Assembly (NCBI RefSeq): GCF_018141165.1
Contig: NZ_CP058557.1
Span: forward strand, 2,542,001-2,606,000
Length of the DNA: 64,000 nt
Direction: 5' to 3'
DNA from: Alkaliphilus sp. B6464
GTDB lineage: Bacteria; Bacillota; Clostridia; Peptostreptococcales; Natronincolaceae
Shown here: one piece after another, positions 3,439-50,740 of the stretch
Numbering within the stretch: position 1 is the stretch's first letter
Layout of the letters: every line of letters starts with the position of its first letter
Made by a program: the position numbers and the translations under genes
The notes under the pieces: model-generated
What the model was told of the DNA's origin: nothing
What the model saw: the letters and a program-made list of their open reading frames with translations, nothing else
The model's database searches: none

Positions 3439-3978
3439 AATATAAAAATTATAGGTAAAAGGATTAAGGTATAGTTTTATTACTCAAGCAACAATCTGTG
3501 TTTATGGAATAAAGCATGCTGGGAGGATAATATATTTATCAAAAAATAACAATCAGCTTCCGAAACTATGTATTTTAGCTATGAAGTTTCCATATGAATC
3601 AATATACAGAAAATGAGTGTAATGTATAGTTTTATTTATTACAGATCATAAAGAATATTAGTAGTAAGAATAAGATTTCAAACTATTTATACTCTTCTAC
3701 TATAAACTATAAAATGCGAATATTTTATTCTAATACCGTATTATTCAGAAATGAATTTTACGGTATTTTTGCGTCGCAATACAAAAATTATGTAAAATAA
3801 AAAAGGGGACATAGACGAATATATAAAAAACATGTAATATAAACATTCCCATGCAATATTCGATATGTTGGAAGATGAGGACAAATATTGCAGGGGAATT
3901 GTTTTTGGTATGAAAGAATTGTAATAAGTTGCGCTACAAGGATATTGTCTACTACTGATATGGATGATGATCTTTTAT
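3439..3978. other. AT-rich intergenic region
   Basis: 540 bases with no supported gene on either strand. The only structure is the terminator-like hairpin at 3732-3768. The minus-strand frame at 3788-3985 lacks a ribosome binding site and is not protein-like. Confidence 0.5.
3732..3768 (+). terminator. Terminator-like hairpin without an adjacent gene
   Basis: AATACCGTA pairs with TACGGTATT and is followed by TTTT. The nearest plus-strand coding sequence ends 290 bases upstream, so it may be left over from a lost gene. Confidence 0.4.
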
Positions 3979-4224
3979 TTAGCATAATTGTCTTTTAAGC
4001 TTTTTAAGCTGTTGCTCCATATCTGCTATCTGATTTTTAAGTTCTTCTTTAGATTCTAAACTCGTTTGCTGGGCAGCCTTAGTAAGTAAACTAGCTCCAA
4101 TTTGTGTAAAAACATTTCCTAGTACATTAAGTTCATCAGTGCTCAAATTTTGTGACAATAAAACAGAAAGGAAAGAAACTATAAGTACTAATGTATCTGG
4201 ATTTATATTTGAAAAATCTGACAT
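3979..4224 (-). CDS. Small clostridial protein with hydrophobic N-half and C-terminal coiled coil
   Basis: Starting at the ATG at 4224, because GAGGTGG lies 6 bases before it and the GTG at 4233 falls inside that site, the protein has 81 residues. It begins MSDFSNINPDTLVLIVSFLSV, has a hydrophobic helix, a middle region with 'LGNVFTQIGASLLTKAAQQ', and ends in a charged coiled coil (ELKNQIADMEQQLKKLKRQL). I recall closely similar unnamed small proteins in Clostridia, but their function is unknown. It is a single-gene unit. Confidence 0.65.
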   Translation of the reverse strand: MSDFSNINPDTLVLIVSFLSVLLSQNLSTDELNVLGNVFTQIGASLLTKAAQQTSLESKEELKNQIADMEQQLKKLKRQLC

Positions 4225-4379
4225 GTATACCACCTCATAAGTATTATATGCATTTTAAGAGGAAATGGCACAACGCAATTGTTGGATGTATGCACAATAT
4301 TAGTGTATTTCGACATTGCAATAGACGCGTGCAAAAATTGAGTGGTAATACGTATCACAAGAATATTATAAAGAAGAAA

Positions 4380-4721
4380 TTAATTTCTATCTATAAATAA
4401 AGTACCATCACTTTGAACTTCGGCGTAAAAAACATCTTCTATATTAGCAATATTATTTTGTTTAAGTTTAGTTGTAGGCCATTCTTCATTTAAATTTAAT
4501 TCTTTTAAATTATGTTTTATTATTTTTCCATCAACAATTATCTCAAATGGAATGTAATTTAAAGTGTTAACAGGAATATTCATATCTTCCTAAGTTATTT
4601 GTTGTTGTTGAGGTTTTTTCATTACACTTAACTTACCATCTGGTTCTAATATTGCATATTCAACTTCTGTAATTGAAAATATGCTGTGTTCTCTAAGCAT
4701 CATTGATAAATCATCCACTTC
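4380..4721 (-). pseudogene. C-terminal remnant of a DUF421 (YetF-like) membrane protein, with an in-frame stop
   Basis: Reading minus from 4721, the sequence VDDLSMMLREHSIFSITEVE, then an ILEPDGKLSVMKKPQQQQIT stretch, is followed by an in-frame TAG. The same frame then continues EDMNIPVNTLNYIPFEIIVDG to a normal 'DVFYAEVQSDGTLFID' ending. This is the cytoplasmic C-terminal domain of the DUF421/YetF family. The transmembrane N-terminal part is missing, replaced by IS3 sequence, and the TAG splits the rest. The 67-residue frame starting at 4583 is therefore a fragment, not a gene. Confidence 0.75.
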
Positions 4722-4801
4722 AAAATAAAATCAAGTGAAAGAGAGATGTGGTCTTCTGTCAACAAAACGGACAATAAAAACTTGATATATTCTTGAATCG
4801 G

Positions 4802-5475
4802 CTAACCAATAGATCTATCCTCAAAATCATATGGTGAAGACATTTCACAATGACTGTGAATTCTCTGAGTATTGTAAAATGCTTCGATATATTCAAAAAT
4901 AAGTTCATGAGCATGACTAATATGCCTTATGACGAACCTGTTGAGCCACTCTCTCTTTATTAGAGCATGAAAAGACTCAATGACAGCATTGTCCCAAGGG
5001 GTTCCCTTTTGTGAATAGTTTCTAATAAATTTGCCTGCTGGTGTTGCCTCAATGTACGCTTTTGATACATATTGCACACCTCTGTCGCTGTGAATAATTA
5101 TCGGAGCATCTGTTTTTCTAGATGTTTTTGCCTTGTTGATGGCTCTTAGTACTCCTTCCGCCCCAAGAGTATCTGAAAGTGCCAACCTATGACTTTTCGT
5201 GAGAATAGATCCATTACTGTTGTTAAGTAAACGAATCCGCTTACTGTCCATACATAGGTAATATCTGTTTGAATTCATTGTAAATCTCTACAATTTCTTG
5301 TTTAACTTGTTTTTTTCTAATTTTTTGATTTGAATCTTTTCGTTTCAAATAATCATAGTATCCGGAGGATGAAACGACTAGTAGTTTAAGCACACTGCTA
5401 ACTGAAATTCGGCGCTTCTTAGATGACTTTTCTACTTCTGTGTAGATCGCTTCAGTTAATCTTTGTTCAGTATGC
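4802..5475 (-). pseudogene. IS3 transposase OrfB, broken by a deletion and a frameshift
   Basis: After orfA the frame reads 'KKRRISVSSVLKLLVVSSSGYYDYLKRKD' and reaches 'YNEFKQ'. It then jumps straight to 'DITYVWTVSGFVYLTTVMDL', so the middle of the HTH_21 region is deleted. Near 5195 one base is missing (CACTTTCAGATACT), shifting the frame. The remaining 158 residues contain the second rve Asp ('IIHSDRGVQY') and the catalytic Glu region ('NAVIESFHALIKREWLNR'). This transposase should be inactive. Confidence 0.8.
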
Positions 5476-8585: not shown

Positions 8586-9003
8586 ATGAATATAGAGAAT
8601 ATAAAAAACAAACTAGAATCAAAAGAATATGATTTCTTAAGGAATAATGAACATCTTGGAGATAGGATTATATTACTAACAACGGGAGGTTCATATGCAT
8701 ATGGTACTAACATAGAAACAAGTGATTTAGATATTAGAGGAATTGCAATTGAAGGGGAAAAAGAAGTTTTAGGATTATCCAATTTTGAACAATTTGAGGA
8801 TGTTTCTACTGATACTACAATTTATGGACTTAAAAAAGTAATTGGATTATTATTAAATTGTAACCCCAATACTGTTGAAATGCTAGGTACAAAAGATGAA
8901 CATGTATTTATATTGTCAGAAGAAGGAAGGCTTATAAGGGAGAATATAGATTTATTTTTATCGAAAAGAGCAATACACAGCTTTGGTGGATATGCAACTG
9001 CTC
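8586..9003 (+). pseudogene. 5' exon of a split nucleotidyltransferase (RlaP/YcgL-like, PF10127 type)
   Basis: Residues 1-139 before the intron contain the polymerase-beta-type motif 'LTTGGSYAYGTNIETSDLDI' (GGS...SDxD) and a helical region. This identifies the predicted nucleotidyltransferase family that includes B. subtilis YcgL. The coding sequence runs into the group II intron boundary GTGCGAC at 9004 after the first base of a codon. Joined to 13990 it reads GGYATA|Q|LRRLQNAL, the expected continuation. The downstream exon is itself damaged, so the gene is probably dead even after splicing. Confidence 0.8.
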
Positions 9004-9607
9004 GTGCGACTTGTAAGTAACTACTTCCAATTCGTCAGTCCTTCCAAATAAGGAAGGTATCATAGTTATCATGATATTCCCACTCGAAACTGCTTACCGA
9101 GTAATTGGTATGTTGGGTTGCATGAGAGAAACGCCTAATTGTGTAGTAATTCCAATGAAACATGGGCAAGGGAAAGAATAATATGGTTAACGATAAGTGA
9201 ATATCTATAAGCATCATAAGCGTAGATAGAGGAAATGGAATTGATACCTCTAATGAGAGTTAAGAAAAAGAACATGGGCTGGTTCTTGTGTGATAACCAA
9301 TGTTGAGAAATCAACAAGCTCTCTGGTGTATTGGATAAACCTAACCTATTCGTATCTGACAGTAGTTAAACAAGGTAAGTCCTATAAGGTCATAAGAAAT
9401 TATGTAGGTCAACCGTAAGGAAGATACAATCCCTTAGAGGATAAAGGATTTCTAAAAAAGCTAACGCCAGTATGTCGAAAGACAAAGGGAATGGAAATAA
9501 CCTACTGGATAGTATCATTTGATACAACTCGAAAGAGTGCTGACTTTAGAATGGTTCACACCATTAATAAAACGGAAAGAAGATAATCTATAAAGGAGGA
9601 GTAAGTG

Positions 9608-10487
9608 ATGAATACTTCGGTGAAAAACTTAAATAAAATCAGCAGAAAGTCCACGACTTCTCTAATATCGGATATATCGCAAGTCGAATGGACTAAGATA
9701 GAAAGATATGTGGAGAAGCTTCAACAACGGATATTTAATGCTGAAAGTCAAAGAAATCATAGAAAAGTAAGGGAGCTACAAAGACTTCTTATGAGAAGTA
9801 AATCTGCTCTATTACTATCTATAAAACAGGTAACTCAAATTAATAAAGGCAAAAGAACAGCAGGAGTAGATGGATACAAAGCTTTAACACCAAAAGATAG
9901 AACTAATCTATATAATAAAATGGTAGTTCAAGACATAAATTTACACAATCCAAAACCTGCTAAACGTATCTATATTGAAAAGAAAAATGGTAAATTAAGA
10001 CCATTAGGTATTCCAGTAATTAAAGATAGAGTGTACCAAAACATTATCAAAATGGCATTAGAGCCACAATGGGAATGTAGATTTGAACCAACATCATATG
10101 GGTTCAGACCAAAAAGAAGTACACATGATGCCATTGAAGCAATCTTTAATAAATTAGCACCTAAAAAGAAGCAATGGATATTTGAAGGAGATTTCAAAGG
10201 TTGCTTTGACAACTTAAATCACGATTATATCATTGAACAATTAGGTAACTTCCCTGCAAAAGACTTAGTTATTAAATGGTTAAAAGCAGGTTATATAGAT
10301 AATAAAGTATTCAATACTACGGAACAAGGAACACCTCAAGGTGGTATAATATCTCCCTTACTTGCAAATATAGCTTTACATGGCTTAGAAAAAGCAGTAG
10401 GAGTAAAATACTATGAATATAAAAGAAAAGGTATTAAAGAAATAGAAAACAGAGGTAGTATTAGTGTAGTAAGATATGCAGATGACT
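9608..10487 (+). CDS. ltrA: Outer intron RT/maturase with HNH domain, first part (interrupted)
   Basis: The start is the ATG at 9608 behind TAAAGGAGGAG. This part holds RT blocks 0-5: 'GKRTAGVDGYKALTPKDR', 'KKNGKLRPLGIPVIKDRVYQ', 'YGFRPKRSTHDAI', 'GDFKGCFDNLNHDYI', 'GTPQGGIISPLLANIALHGLE' and the catalytic 'VVRYADD'. Coding stops being meaningful right after GAT GAC T, where the inner intron starts. It resumes at 12994 (TT GTT ATC = FVI). Joined, the protein would have about 592 residues and would mobilise and splice the outer intron. The symbol is the generic name for group II intron proteins. Confidence 0.85.
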
Positions 10488-11034
10488 GTGCGCCACGAAG
10501 GCGTGTCCAAGTAGCGTAGCTACTTGAAGACAGCTATGCTGTGCAGATGATGGCGGTAGGCCCGCCGAAATCGCCATACAGGTGGAGGTTTCAAACTACC
10601 TTAAGGTGCTGTGGTCAAAAGCCATGGTATTGAGCGTTAAGGAAAAGGCAGTATCTAAACTGTCAAGTGCGTATTAAGGAGATGAACGAGCAAGTGAACC
10701 ACTTACGAAAATGTCGAAAGCGTAGAGATTCCATCAAAACCAGGGGGTTGTCGTTAATCTGGGATAAGTCTAGGGGAAACCTGTTTACTGCCTAGATGGT
10801 GGGCGGCATAAAGGTGGCATGAACTTAATACAGGCGTCTGTACGGAACGTGGGAACCCACGGACTGATGTCAAGGGAGTATATCAAGCGGAAGAACCGCA
10901 AGATAAGAGTACCAATGCAGTCATGGGGGCAGATTGGGTTGTAGTAGTGAGGAAGTTTCTGTAATGGGAATGGAGTGAAGAACCCGAGTTATTCAGTTTC
11001 AAGAATAAGTCAACTTTGAAAGGAGGAGGAGCTT

Positions 11035-12279
11035 ATGCAAGAAACAAAGCCATATAATATTTCAAAATGGAAAGTGAAAGAAGCCTACGAAAAGGTGAAA
11101 GCAAACAAGGGAACATACGGAGTCGATGAACAATCAATTGAAGATTTTGAGAAGAATCTAAATAATAATCTATACAAAATCTGGAATAGGATGTCATCAG
11201 GGAGTTACTTCCCCAAACCTGTAAGGGCAGTAGCAATACCTAAGAAAAATGGAGGGACTCGTATCTTAGGAATACCAACAGTAGAAGATAGGGTTGCACA
11301 AATGGTGGCTAAAATGTACTTTGAACCCTGTGTAGAACCAATATTCTATGAGGATTCCTATGGATATAGACCGAATAAATCAGCGATACAAGCATTGGAG
11401 ATCACAAGAGAAAGATGTTGGAGAAAAGATTGGGTGTTAGAATTTGATATTAAAGGTCTTTTCGATAATATACGGCATGATTACCTAATAGAAATGGTAA
11501 GTCGGCATACAGAAGAAGCATGGATAATTATGTATATTAAACGCTGGCTGGTTGTACCATTTCAAATGGAGGATGGAACAGTCATCGAAAGAACTTCTGG
11601 TACACCACAAGGTGGGGTAATCAGTCCAGTACTCTCAAACTTGTTTCTACACTATGTATTTGATGACTTTATGACAAAACAGTTTCCAACAATACCTTGG
11701 GCAAGATACGCAGATGATGGAATAGCACATTGCGTATCTTTAAAGCAGGCGAAGTATCTTCAACGAAGATTAGAAGAGCGATTTCTGATGTTTGGACTTG
11801 GATTGAACTTAGAAAAGACAAGAACCGTGTATTGTAAAGATGAAGACCGAAAGGGGAATCATGAATATACATCTTTTGACTTTTTAGGGTATACATTCAG
11901 ACCAAGACATGCAAAGAATAAGTATGGAAAATTCTTTACAAACTTTCTTCCAGCTATTGGCGAGAAAGCAAAGAAATCTATACGGAAAGAAGTCCGAAGT
12001 TGGAAATTGCAACTGAAACCTGACAAAGATTTATGGGATATAGCAAATATGTTCAATAGTAAGATACAGGGTTGGATTAATTATTACACGCATTTCTACA
12101 AATCAGAGATATACGATGTATTAAGGTATATCAATGGATGTCTTGTTAACTGGGTTCGTAGAAAATATAAGAAGCGAGGGTCAAGGCGACGTGCTGAGTA
12201 TTGGCTTGGTATAATAGCAAGGCGTGATAAGAATCTGTTTGCACACTGGAGGTTTGGAATATTACCATCGGCTGGATAA
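11035..12279 (+). CDS. Inner intron reverse transcriptase/maturase (no endonuclease domain)
   Basis: 414 residues with all RT blocks: 'KGTYGVDEQSIEDF', 'KKNGGTRILGIPTVEDR', 'YGYRPNKSAIQALE', 'EFDIKGLFDNIRHDYL', 'TSGTPQGGVISPVLSNLFL', 'WARYADDGIAH' and 'FDFLGYTFRPR'. The maturase/X domain follows ('INYYTHFYKSEIYDVLRYINGCLVNWVRRKY'). It ends at 'HWRFGILPSAG' with no HNH, so it differs from the outer protein and would have to prime without second-strand cleavage. Its start lies behind AAAGGAGGAGG. It appears intact. The protein is clearly of another lineage than the outer one, so the nesting is not a duplication of the outer intron. Confidence 0.92.
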   Translation: MQETKPYNISKWKVKEAYEKVKANKGTYGVDEQSIEDFEKNLNNNLYKIWNRMSSGSYFPKPVRAVAIPKKNGGTRILGIPTVEDRVAQMVAKMYFEPCVEPIFYEDSYGYRPNKSAIQALEITRERCWRKDWVLEFDIKGLFDNIRHDYLIEMVSRHTEEAWIIMYIKRWLVVPFQMEDGTVIERTSGTPQGGVISPVLSNLFLHYVFDDFMTKQFPTIPWARYADDGIAHCVSLKQAKYLQRRLEERFLMFGLGLNLEKTRTVYCKDEDRKGNHEYTSFDFLGYTFRPRHAKNKYGKFFTNFLPAIGEKAKKSIRKEVRSWKLQLKPDKDLWDIANMFNSKIQGWINYYTHFYKSEIYDVLRYINGCLVNWVRRKYKKRGSRRRAEYWLGIIARRDKNLFAHWRFGILPSAG

Positions 12280-12356
12280 TGGGAGCCGTATGAGCTGAGA
12301 GGTTCACGTACGGTTCTGAGAGGGACTTAAGGGGAGGTTCCTTAGGTCTACTCACT
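11720..12356 (+). repeat. 637-bp tandem duplication, copy 1 (3' part of inner intron)
   Basis: It spans the RT codons just after YADD-G through domain V, domain VI and the 3' end of the intron. Copy 2 follows directly at 12357-12993. Wherever I compared them, including all coding residues from MFGLGLNLEKTR to the stop, the copies are identical. Confidence 0.95.
12283..12316 (+). other. Domain V of the inner group II intron
   Basis: GAGCCGTATGAGCTGAGAGG followed by TTCACGTACGGTTC forms the classic 34-nt catalytic hairpin. A second copy is at 12920-12953. Either could pair with the single upstream 5' domain, giving two possible 3' splice sites. Confidence 0.85.
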
Positions 12357-12993
12357 GAATAGCACATTGCGTATCTTTAAAGCAGGCGAAGTATCTTCAA
12401 CGAAGATTAGAAGAGCGATTTCTGATGTTTGGACTTGGATTGAACTTAGAAAAGACAAGAACCGTGTATTGTAAAGATGAAGACCGAAAGGGGAATCATG
12501 AATATACATCTTTTGACTTTTTAGGGTATACATTCAGACCAAGACATGCAAAGAATAAGTATGGAAAATTCTTTACAAACTTTCTTCCAGCTATTGGCGA
12601 GAAAGCAAAGAAATCTATACGGAAAGAAGTCCGAAGTTGGAAATTGCAACTGAAACCTGACAAAGATTTATGGGATATAGCAAATATGTTCAATAGTAAG
12701 ATACAGGGTTGGATTAATTATTACACGCATTTCTACAAATCAGAGATATACGATGTATTAAGGTATATCAATGGATGTCTTGTTAACTGGGTTCGTAGAA
12801 AATATAAGAAGCGAGGGTCAAGGCGACGTGCTGAGTATTGGCTTGGTATAATAGCAAGGCGTGATAAGAATCTGTTTGCACACTGGAGGTTTGGAATATT
12901 ACCATCGGCTGGATAATGGGAGCCGTATGAGCTGAGAGGTTCACGTACGGTTCTGAGAGGGACTTAAGGGGAGGTTCCTTAGGTCTACTCACT
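12357..12993 (+). repeat. 637-bp tandem duplication, copy 2
   Basis: It begins GAATAGCAC directly after the first ...CTCACT intron end, and finishes with the same ...CTCACT before outer RT coding resumes. It contains a second domain V (12920-12953). The left edge coincides with the YADD-proximal insertion phase in the inner RT gene. This suggests it is the 3' remainder of an intron copy that was itself invaded. Confidence 0.95.
12358..12916 (+). pseudogene. Duplicated C-terminal fragment of the inner RT
   Basis: The frame continues IAHCVSLKQAKYLQRRLEER and the rest of the inner RT to the same stop, with residues identical to the first copy. It has no start codon or upstream RT blocks. The 163-residue frame from 12425 is therefore not an independent gene. 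Confidence 0.9.
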
Positions 12994-13892
12994 TTGTTAT
13001 CATATGTGAAAAAGAAGAAGAAGCTAAGAGTATGTACGATAAATTAACGCCTTACTTAAATAAAAGAGGATTAGAATTAGCCGATGATAAAACAAGGATA
13101 GTTCATATCACAGAAGGTTTCGATTTCTTAGGATTTAATGTTAGAAGTTACAATGACCATAATAAAACAAAATTATTAATTAAACCATCTAAGGAGAGCA
13201 TAAAGAAATTCAAAGCTAAAATATATGATGTGTTTGAACATAATAAGGGTAAAAATGCTAACTATCTAATAAATAAGTTAAATCCACTAATAAGAGGTAC
13301 TGCTAACTACTGGAAATCTACTTGTTCAAGCGAGATTTTCTCTTCAATGGATAACTATATATTTGGAAAGATAGTGAAGTTTTTAAAAAGACTACACCCT
13401 ACAAAAAGTTGGAAATGGAAGTGTGAAAGATACTTTAAACCGGATAAAACTGGTCAAAGTAAAAATAAATGGATATTAACCGACCCAGATAAAGGTATAC
13501 AATTATACCAAATGGGATGGACTTCTATAATAAGACACACTTTAATAAAGATGAATAATTCGCCATATGATGCTAACCTCAAAGAATATTTCCATAAAAG
13601 GAATATTAAAGAGTTTAATAGACAAAATGTTGATATAAAACAGAAAATGGCAAAATTCCAGAACTATAAATGTTATCTATGTGGTAACTCATTAGTTGAC
13701 GATAAGGAAGGAACTGAAATTCATCATAAAAAGCCAATATCTAAGGGTGGAAAGAATACAATAAAGAATATGGTATTAACTCACATATCTTGCCATACTG
13801 AATTTCATAGAACGTATCCAATCAAAGGAGAAATCCCAGATACGAAAGAAATTCTAAAATATAAAAAAGCCTTGAATAATAAAAGAGTATAG
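12994..13892 (+). CDS. ltrA: Outer intron RT/maturase, second part with HNH endonuclease
   Basis: It continues from the YADD motif with 'FVIICEKEEEAKSMYDKL' and 'TEGFDFLGFNVRSYN' (RT block 7), then the maturase region ('LIRGTANYWKSTCSSEIF'). A C-terminal HNH endonuclease follows with 'YKCYLCGNSLVDD', 'EIHHKKPISKGGKNTIKN' and 'HISCHTEFHR', including its Cys-pair zinc site. An ATG at 13032 would give a 286-residue fragment without an RT active site, so this part is meaningful only after removal of all 2506 inner bases. Confidence 0.85.
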
Positions 13893-13914
13893 ACTTTTAG
13901 AAAAAAGTGGGCTT

Positions 13915-13948
13915 GAGCCGTATGTGGTGAAAGTCACAAGTACGGTTC
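13915..13948 (+). other. Domain V of the outer group II intron
   Basis: GAGCCGTATGTGGTGAAAGT continues to CACAAGTACGGTTC, the conserved catalytic hairpin with a GAAA loop, 41 bases before the 3' splice site. Confidence 0.85.
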
Positions 13949-13989
13949 TTAGGGGGGAAGGAAGTAGTAATACTTCTGCCCTACCCGAC

Positions 13990-14434
13990 AATTGAGAAGG
14001 CTCCAAAATGCTTTAGCAAGAGATAATTATCCACAATCTATCCACTACGAGATTTCAAAAATATCTATTCTGAGATGGGGAATGTAATTAAAGACTATAG
14101 TAAGCTTAACCATAGAAATAGAAAGAAAGATGATTTACATTTAAACAAACATGCAATGCATTTAGTAAGATTATTAGCTATGGGAACAGAATTGCTAGAA
14201 GGGAAAGGTATAAATACCTATAGGGAGAATGATCGTGAACTCTTATTAGAAATTAGGGATGGTAAGTATCAGAATGAAGATGGTTCGTTTAAAGAAGAAT
14301 TCTTTGAATTAGTAAATCAATATGAGGTAAAATTGAAGTATGCTGCTGATAATTCACCATTACCATTTAAGCCCAACTTTAATAAAGTCGAGGAATTATT
14401 GATTGAAATCAACAGAAGGAGACTTTTAAAATGA
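13990..14434 (+). pseudogene. 3' exon of the nucleotidyltransferase, with a frame-breaking lesion
   Basis: From the splice junction the frame reads Q-LRRLQNALARDNYPQS and then runs to a stop at 14085-14087. The correct family sequence resumes in a different frame at about 14039: YPLRDFKNIYSEMGNVIKDY, then 'DDLHLNKHAMHLVRLLAMGTELL' to the end. Between them lies TATCCACAATCTATCCACTA, two copies of TATCCAC. This points to a deletion by slippage between short repeats. The frame starting at ATG 14075 is therefore a fragment. Its TGA overlaps the cca start (ATGA), suggesting the two genes were once coupled. Confidence 0.7.
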
Positions 14435-50127: not shown

Positions 50128-50134
50128 GTTCTAT

Positions 50135-50740
50135 GATTAATTTGTAGTGATGCAGTATTCTAGTCAATTAAATTAACCTCGAAGGCGGGGCTAAAAATCC
50201 GTTGAAGGGCATATCGATGAAGTTCCTAGTTTCGGCCGCTGACGCCCAGTTGGGGGTCGGTTCTGGGAGTAAGAGGTGGGGGCGATCCGCAATGGCATGC
50301 GGGCGTTGACCCTTGCCTCGTGGAGACCGACTTCAGTTATGTGAAGAGGGGGAACCTGCAATTTTGTATGAAAGTGCGATTGAGCAGTGTAGCCTGCCTT
50401 GAGTGATATAGGCAGATAAGTAGATCAGTTTCCAGAAGCCAGGGCCCGGTGAAAGGATCCATCGCTACTTGAAACCTATGTTGCAAAAGAGGCTAAGGGT
50501 TAATTTAATTGTTGAGGAAAACTCCTAGACTGTTCATATTGAGGTATATTAAGGATTACAGTGCGGACTAAGTGGCAATCCAGTCTTACTATTGGTGACA
50601 AAGTAGATATCGGTTTAAAGGGAAACCGCTGCAATGGTGACAGGCAGTACTGATTTGGGAAATCCAACTGGACCTAAGCCGTAAAATTTACTTACTATAC
50701 TATCACTGCTTATGGAGCTGGTAGCATATGCTATCAGCTT
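50135..50740 (+). ncRNA. ole: OLE RNA (ornate, large, extremophilic)
   Basis: About 600 bases of GC-richer, strongly structured, non-coding DNA between the isoprenoid genes and dxs. This is the conserved place of OLE RNA in Bacillus halodurans and anaerobic extremophiles. Visible structures include the CTCGAAGGCGGGGCTAAAAA start, the GGTGGGGGCGATCCGC...GCGGGCGTTGACCC region and GGCCCGGTGAAAGGATCC. A final hairpin, AGCTGGTAGC-ATAT-GCTATCAGCT, lies at 50716-50738. The OLE partner gene follows directly. OLE forms a membrane ribonucleoprotein needed for stress tolerance in known hosts. The exact ends are estimated. Confidence 0.88.

Follow-up and report, generated by a model that had tools for sequence, protein, structure and literature searches.

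Does a group II intron that lies inside the reverse transcriptase (RT) gene of another group II intron sit there by chance, or is it aimed at the codons that it interrupts? The question is raised by a nested pair of introns on the forward strand of a 64,000-nt stretch of Alkaliphilus sp. B6464 (the window). We consider it highly probable that the inner intron is one of a widespread lineage that specialises in RT YADD codons through a guide that pairs with GAYGAY, and that the nest in the window was scarred by self-insertion.

An intron within an intron within a gene

The outer intron interrupts an RlaP-type nucleotidyltransferase gene (Pfam RlaP), the 5′ part of which lies at 8586–9003 and the 3′ part at 13990–14434. 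An empty-site homologue with 96% identity in a genome of the same genus (G001) reads GCAACTGCTC|AATTG and sets the outer boundaries exactly at 9004 and 13989, where the first-pass annotation had placed them. The 5′ segment (9004–10487) carries the N-terminal part of the outer RT (9605–10487), ending in its YADD codons plus one base, TATGCAGATGACT (10475–10487), which is the target of the inner intron. The 3′ segment (12994–13989), supported by Rfam and Pfam matches, the rejoined frame and the empty site, carries the C-terminal part of the RT with maturase and HNH domains (12994–13892), followed by the outer domains V–VI (13913–13989). The host gene lacks 160 nt that G001 has, at 14038/14039, and is thus broken independently of the outer intron.

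The inner DNA begins at 10487/10488 with TATGCAGATGACT|GTGCGCC, which fits the group II 5′ end GUGYG, and ends at 12993/12994 with CTCACT|TTGTT; the rejoined RT frame and the empty site place it within the outer intron with exact boundaries. Once it is removed the outer RT reads …RYADD|FVIICEKEEEAKSMY… and continues to the C-terminal HNH domain. An intron in the outer RT at GAT GAC T|TT GTT, and a frame restored by removal of 10488–12993, had both been read at first pass, and the two junctions, the Rfam and domain matches and the joined translation agree with this. That whole span is not one complete intron, however, as had been supposed: the complete intron occupies 10488–12356 (1869 nt, identical to three other copies in the genome), whilst 12357–12993 is a 637-nt repeat. 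The duplicated 3′ end had been missed.

Rfam recognises D1-D4-2 (RF01999, 115 bits) at 10552–10668 of the inner intron, and domain V (RF00029, 60.5 bits) is matched twice in the inner region, within a proximal (12281–12356) and a distal (12918–12993) copy of domains V–VI, each with its own possible 3′ splice site. The proximal domain V/VI folds at −35.7 kcal/mol (z −4.6), and the distal copy folds alike. A pairing scan and the alignment of relatives place EBS1, TGTCGTT, at 10749–10755, where GTCGTT pairs with GAYGAY, and the pairing scan of the window copy gives a candidate EBS2, TGCGTAT (complement of ATAYGCA), at 10668–10674. The EBS1 region folded alone gave no convincing hairpin with the guide in its loop, so the loop position is claimed from the alignment. 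The inner RT/maturase (IEP) of 414 aa (11035–12279) is intact, with RVT_1 and GIIM (maturase) domains and 402 bits to NCBIfam TIGR04416 against a cutoff of 300; its own YADD codons plus one base, TACGCAGATGATG (11707–11719), form a putative self-insertion site.

By consensus, group II introns end in AY. The inner intron departs from this, ending in CTCACT (an end fixed by the self-insertion junction), and its relatives end in CACT, TACT, CACC, TGCC or CGAC; as AY is a loose consensus and no strict criterion, group II membership stands. Domain searches found HNH in the outer IEP and none in the inner, a trait of class D (IIB3). A relative on pSymA of S. meliloti 1021 (L154, about 50% identical), which we take to be RmInt1, falls inside the IEP tree, a quick tree of 95 rows that has no labelled class references and from which duplicates, short IEPs and, by hand, some further rows were left out. 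As part of the best explanation, the inner element is very probably a mobile group II intron without an endonuclease domain, class D-like.

Target sites and their guide

Four identical 1869-nt copies are present in this genome, their 100% identity marking them as recent. Three interrupt RT YADD codons, and the frames rejoin, whilst the fourth (L015) lies in an acetyltransferase-like gene, named by reading its translation, that by coincidence encodes YADD. The genome also has at least three unoccupied YADD sites (L019, L021 and L022). One of these, L019, is an empty-site paralogue: over 1910 bp it is 99.27% identical to the flanks of L017 once these are joined, and its junction is exact. The identical copies and the empty-site paralogue offer indirect support for self-splicing and retrohoming.

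In a wider survey, 80 relatives were picked by protein similarity alone. With duplicates included, 46 of these loci lie in YADD codons of an RT, four in YADD codons outside a recognised RT, three in near-YADD codons of an RT and 18 at other sites, with nine lacking a located 5′ boundary; YADD codons are occupied at 50 of 80 in all, in a tally where boundaries were found by the YADD pattern or the 5′ consensus of the intron, somewhat easier for YADD sites. A pattern scan of 398 genomes, free of protein similarity, returned nine matches in six genomes, four of them in this genome, with none in the backward control, and all five matches elsewhere follow RT coding. These counts, together with three of the four own copies and the conserved guide described below, give good support to the first-pass proposal that the inner intron is aimed at YADD codons that recur across unrelated RT genes; insertions do not lie mainly outside RTs. 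Two corrections are called for. A generalist intron nested in an RT by chance, its YADD position incidental, would fit the own copy outside an RT and the 18 relatives at other sites, but is exceedingly improbable given the 46 relatives at the same RT codons, the pattern scan, and the GTCGTT guide with its permutation test; as a general account it is ruled out by the 80-locus survey.

The corrections concern what is hit. Many targets are other introns, as had been thought, yet the intron's own RT (in the scar) and a retron-like RT on a viral contig are also among them, and insertions also lie in the acetyltransferase-like gene, a terminase-like gene and the antisense of a transporter-like gene, whose DNA reads YADD (names from translations). 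The invaded RTs comprise 47 distinct proteins among 55 at 95% identity, or 12 clusters at 50%, and the lineage is found across several bacterial phyla and some archaea. Of 13 stretches returned by a scan of viral contigs for YADD plus GTGYGCC, only two (L141 and L143) belong to the same lineage.

Invaded RT frames rejoin at 45 of 47 assessable loci (L043 and L146 fail; ten are not assessable; duplicates included), in a test that takes the 3′ end by consensus and then the longest open frame, and that favours rejoining. Such frames across many genomes, although recency could explain part of them, count against the twintron being a dead composite, its outer element no longer spliced and its frames kept only through recency. 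We regard that reading as rather unlikely, with the 160-nt deletion near the intron in the host nucleotidyltransferase, owing to which outer splicing would yield the cell no intact gene, and the identical, hence recent, inner copies speaking for it.

Of the strict-YADD introns, 62 of 63 have GTCGTT in the loop of EBS1 with duplicates counted, and 54 of 55 once seven duplicates (L055, L080, L107, L109, L110, L125 and L032) are taken out. The exception, L094, occupies a YADD site without GTCGTT; L040, L047 and L064 have GTCGTT without a GAYGAY site. Through this motif each degenerate third base of GAYGAY meets a G, and all four spellings of GAYGAY are in use (23, 14, 9 and 9; n = 55). Relatives at other sites have an EBS1 altered to match: EBS1–site pairing over 24 unique retargeted introns totals 322 against a permuted mean of 135 (sd 17), a value reached by 0 of 20,000 permutations, and several branches switched EBS1 and site together, a natural retargeting. 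Facing the −1 T, the EBS1 of the window copy reads T where A is usual, which leaves pairing over six, not seven, positions in most sites.

Most targets being RT genes (46/80), it might be an RT protein or RNA, in cis or RNP-driven, that guides the intron to them, leaving YADD as a by-product; this is very improbable, as insertions occur in YADD DNA outside recognised RTs too and site changes follow EBS1 changes. Occupation of the acetyltransferase-like, terminase-like and antisense transporter-like DNA suggests, at the level of sequence, that the intron recognises nucleotides and not RT genes as such.

In the mechanism that we propose, the intron RNA would recognise DNA by pairing EBS1 GTCGTT with the two aspartate codons GAYGAY, the G at each degenerate position pairing with C or U like a wobble anticodon, so that all four synonymous spellings would be accepted. 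As expected from the family, reverse splicing into the target and copying by its own RT would follow. Because YADD is hard for RTs to lose, the target would recur in many kinds of intron, in the retron-like RT and in the RT that the intron itself encodes. A single odd twintron would thereby become a testable rule, that a selfish RNA attacks those codons whose change would cost its victims most, with tolerance of synonymous codons built in through G-C/G·U pairing, and would offer a clean case both for hyperparasitism between retroelements and for guide RNA evolution tracking protein motifs.

The 637-nt repeat and two possible 3′ splice sites

Positions 12357–12993 repeat 11720–12356, the 3′ third of the intron, at 637 of 637 positions. 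The repeat starts one base past the intron's own YADD-plus-one site, and the base preceding it is the intron's 3′ end; that both breakpoints meet intron landmarks is far beyond chance. With the 3′ end repeated there are two domain V/VI copies, identical in sequence, and two possible 3′ splice sites. Joining to the proximal end would stop the outer RT at once with a TGA, whilst the distal end rejoins its frame.

A dedicated scan found the repeat at one of 106 loci, the window; in the same scan L043 has a second, different relative downstream and no scar. Long tblastn matches at other loci, considered as further scars, were the 3′ halves of invaded RTs (12 stretches inspected). This single occurrence, and the commonness of tandem copies, would suit an ordinary tandem duplication by replication slippage or an assembly artefact, but such an origin is improbable: the repeat has the self-target point (YADD+1) and the intron 3′ end as its exact limits, the bases before the copies (GATGATG versus CTCACT) do not suggest microhomology, and an own-RT target with the same guide pairing predicts exactly such a junction.

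Self-insertion, which we infer from this one case, would have proceeded in three steps: one copy would enter the RT of the outer intron, a second would insert at the YADD codons of the first, and recombination between repeats, or some comparable event, would then remove one 5′ half, so that one full intron remained along with a 3′ remnant bearing a second domain V/VI. The scar would match the copy loss by recombination expected of Methanosarcina-type introns, as one case in 106. Distal splicing should restore the outer RT, and proximal splicing should free a normal mobile lariat and leave a stop codon, which makes the scarred copy a natural test of two identical 3′ splice sites in competition. 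With slightly less than even confidence we suggest a broader picture, in which a wobble-anticodon-like guide reads the codons of catalytic residues, any RT gene (of introns, retron-like or its own) can be invaded with no escape by silent mutation, self-invasion sets the limit, and the 3′ splice site chosen in the scarred copy determines whether the parasite is released or the RT of its host element is rescued.

Related nested introns

Dai and Zimmerly reportedly described nested group II introns of Methanosarcina in 2003 (RNA 9:14). According to extracts of later papers, introns of M. acetivorans and M. mazei home repeatedly into the RT ORFs of other group II introns, which serve as a perpetual homing site, and copies are lost via homologous recombination (PMC4424553, PMC1712230). 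Nested homing into RT ORFs is thus already known from Methanosarcina, and insertion at a fixed site in such ORFs is likewise found here; as far as those extracts go, the present case differs in spanning several bacterial phyla, in its codon-reading guide, in its own and retron-like RT targets, and in an outer intron that sits inside a host gene. On the same footing Methanosarcina is a closer precedent than Thermosynechococcus elongatus, to which the first-pass annotation had pointed. In the extracts on TeI3/TeI4, members of one family do occupy a constant position in the RT ORF region of another, and the inner copies are identical, but these lack ORFs and lie between the first two ATGs, near the start codons, rather than in YADD codons (PMC2882425).

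Copies of c-Ha.de.I1 occur at a specific position within other copies of itself, whilst its remaining copies lie in IS elements and at varied sites, with no YADD specificity stated in the portion of the paper available (PMC3522654). In C.te.I1 of Clostridium tetani, alternative 3′ splice sites and alternative fusion proteins arise from several repeats of domain V/VI (PMC4424553), whereas the second copy here probably came from self-insertion. RmInt1 and RmInt2 of Sinorhizobium meliloti (class D) resemble the inner intron, the extracted text describing an IEP without an endonuclease domain and recognition mainly by EBS/IBS pairing; the target of RmInt1 is an insertion sequence, ISRm2011-2, unlike the YADD codons here (PMC5894124). 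In these partial sources, which cover the Methanosarcina case through later papers, we found no counterpart of the codon-reading guide, its breadth, the retron-like target or the scar. Among the archaeal members of the lineage is one in a 4.1-Mb genome from a Methanosarcinaceae sample; it interrupts RT YADD codons, and its loop likewise carries GTCGTT.

A twintron with a probable self-insertion scar

The window contains a group II intron (the outer intron, 9004-13989) hosted by an RlaP-type nucleotidyltransferase gene, an intron-free version of which is found in a same-genus genome with 96% identity over the exact junction. Relative to that genome the gene lacks 160 nt at 14038/14039, just 3' of the outer intron, and is therefore broken whether the outer intron is spliced or not. 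The outer reverse transcriptase (RT) is split at the codons of its YADD active-site motif (GAT GAC T|TT GTT), where the first-pass annotation had placed the inner insertion, and removal of 10488-12993 returns it to frame, again as that annotation had it, through the maturase and HNH domains. Its reading of 10488-12993 as one complete intron does not stand as a whole: the complete inner intron is 10488-12356 (1869 nt), which has three further identical copies in the same genome.

The other 637 nt, 12357-12993, match 11720-12356 base for base. Position 11720 immediately follows the YADD codons plus one base of the inner RT itself, a point equivalent to the insertion position in the outer RT; the inner intron ends with 12356. 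Self-insertion followed by loss of a 5' part is the simplest history of this segment: a second intron copy would have entered the YADD codons of the copy already sitting in the outer RT, and of the two 5' parts, identical in sequence, one would then have been lost, leaving 12357-12993 as a remnant. A tandem duplication of the segment is possible but unlikely, as both ends of the repeat fall on intron landmarks (YADD plus one base, and the intron 3' end). The twintron is real and exact, and carries a probable self-insertion scar, a feature found at 1 of the 106 loci tested, that of the window. Two identical domain V/VI units follow from the scar; with splicing to the proximal unit the outer RT is predicted to run into a stop (GAT GAC TGA), and with splicing to the distal unit it is predicted to be restored. 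In Clostridium tetani, repeated domain V/VI units serve as alternative 3' splice sites (PMC4424553). The window also encodes an OLE RNA (Ornate Large Extremophilic RNA, Rfam RF01071) at 50131-50722 (+), scoring 481.8 bits.

Insertion sites of copies and relatives

The first-pass annotation had tied the inner intron to RT YADD codons in general, which is largely borne out by the sites of further copies in this and other genomes. Three of the four own-genome copies (the window, L016 and L017) lie at YADD codons of RT genes; the fourth (L015) lies near the 3' end of a gene that reads as acetyltransferase-like, where the local sequence happens to encode GKEYADDILMAILEDEW. An uninterrupted paralogue of the outer intron invaded at L017 (L019; 99.27% identity over 1910 bp) provides an exact empty site. 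YADD sites are likewise unoccupied in L021 and L022, two 637-aa RT open-reading frames which are identical around YADD (TATGCCGATGAC TGG) and have no intron there. Elsewhere in this genome, a cobalamin riboswitch lies near the L016 nested intron region (L016 1442-1636, minus strand), and at L020 (about 3690-5440, minus strand; C1, near 318 kb) a gene we read as DNA polymerase III alpha-like is apparently split by a group II intron, the RT open-reading frame of which stops before the YADD motif.

Relatives were surveyed by alignment of the intron-encoded RT/maturase (IEP) in one genome per species, with site information unused, and invaded RTs were recognised by comparing the exon upstream of each intron, with tblastn, to a set of ten N-terminal RT segments. 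Of the best 80 loci, 46 sit on the YADD codons of a recognised RT and 3 on near-YADD codons of an RT; in 4 the DNA encodes YADD outside any recognised RT, 18 occupy other sites, and 9 lack a located boundary. A search of plasmid DNA yielded eight relatives whose 5' boundary could be read, every one of them at YADD codons. A pattern scan of 398 genomes using no protein information returned nine exact matches in six genomes, four being the own-genome copies, and its backward control returned none. All five matches outside the own genome come after RT coding sequence, and a related IEP was seen in three of these within the short stretch of locus examined. At L160, YADD-plus-GTGCGCCACGA was matched after RT coding; neither a related IEP nor GTCGTT was found in its short downstream stretch, and it is possibly an ORF-less or different intron.

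The 50 non-duplicate YADD-in-RT relatives comprise Bacillota (28), Planctomycetota (4), Acidobacteriota (3), Pseudomonadota (2), one each from Verrucomicrobiota, Ignavibacteriota and an archaeal Methanosarcinaceae record, and ten from plasmids, viral contigs or unplaced records. Invaded RTs of at least 120 aa (n = 55) include 47 distinct at 95% identity and form 12 clusters at 50%, and with the intron removed the invaded reading frame is continuous at 45 of 47 assessable loci (duplicates included; 10 not assessable). One of the invaded RTs, found in a viral contig (L122/L125), resembles retron RTs: it matches the NCBIfam retron St85 RT at 185 bits, below the family cutoff of 235, and PADLOC RT_II-A at 178 bits. 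The inner intron's lineage is widespread and aimed at RT active-site codons. In an Enterococcus faecalis plasmid (L030 5814-6842), a relative at YADD-equivalent RT codons is itself interrupted by a transposase gene, IS30-like by our reading, and in Pelosinus (L043) more related IEPs are stacked downstream of a YADD-inserted copy, possibly as a nested array.

Guide pairing and retargeting

When the inner intron was scanned for stretches complementary to its five targets, it yielded GTCGTT (10750-10755), which pairs at six of six positions with both GATGAC and GATGAT, and a partner for ATAYGCA, TGCGTAT (10668-10674). In an alignment of 96 introns, the EBS1 loop, the guide pairing with the aspartate codons, is GTCGTT in 62 of 63 strict-YADD introns (54 of 55 with duplicates removed, the four aspartate-codon spellings being used 23, 14, 9 and 9 times). 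Each degenerate third position of the two codons faces a G, able to pair with either C or U; the guide thereby accommodates RT genes that differ synonymously.

Introns of the lineage that sit elsewhere carry another EBS1, matched to the site they occupy; across 24 unique retargeted introns, summed EBS1-site pairing was 322 vs. 135 (sd 17) with sites permuted, and 0 of 20,000 permutations scored as high. Two relatives with a changed EBS1 (L148 and L150) are inserted at YADH codons, which we take to be a motif of the IS66 transposase, in genes that read as such; an annotated IS66 transposase directly downstream supports the assignment at L150. The YADD/non-YADD label needs nine changes on a quick tree, and retargeting has therefore occurred several times, in one or both directions. 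Exceptions are L094, with a YADD site and a guide without GTCGTT; L040, L047 and L064, with GTCGTT and a site other than GAYGAY; and the window's own EBS1, with T opposite -1.

Mobility and known nested introns

In introns of this type, EBS/IBS pairing does most of the recognition of the DNA into which they reverse-splice, and an endonuclease for the second-strand cut is absent (PMC5894124). The inner intron would take the same route, reverse splicing at EBS/IBS-paired DNA with no second-strand endonuclease; its pairing, sites, exact junctions and guide/site covariation are observed, and its splicing and mobility are predicted from the family.

Introns homing into RT genes of other introns are already known. 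In the Thermosynechococcus twintrons cited in the first-pass annotation, the first and second start codons of the outer open-reading frame flank the inner intron (PMC2882425). In the portions of the sources available, searches returned no account in which YADD codons are the target (a 2003 Methanosarcina paper, outside the search, may place the site), a guide suits degenerate codons or the victim of an intron is a retron-like RT. Three copies of the bacterial intron c-Ha.de.I1 lie inside other c-Ha.de.I1 copies at a specific position (PMC3522654). Group II introns of Methanosarcina tend to land within other group II introns, in the RT gene (PMC1712230), with repeated homing and loss of copies through recombination (PMC4424553). 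A 4.1-Mb genome from a Methanosarcinaceae sample has a relative at RT YADD codons, also with the guide GTCGTT, and the Methanosarcina introns therefore probably belong to the same lineage as the inner intron.
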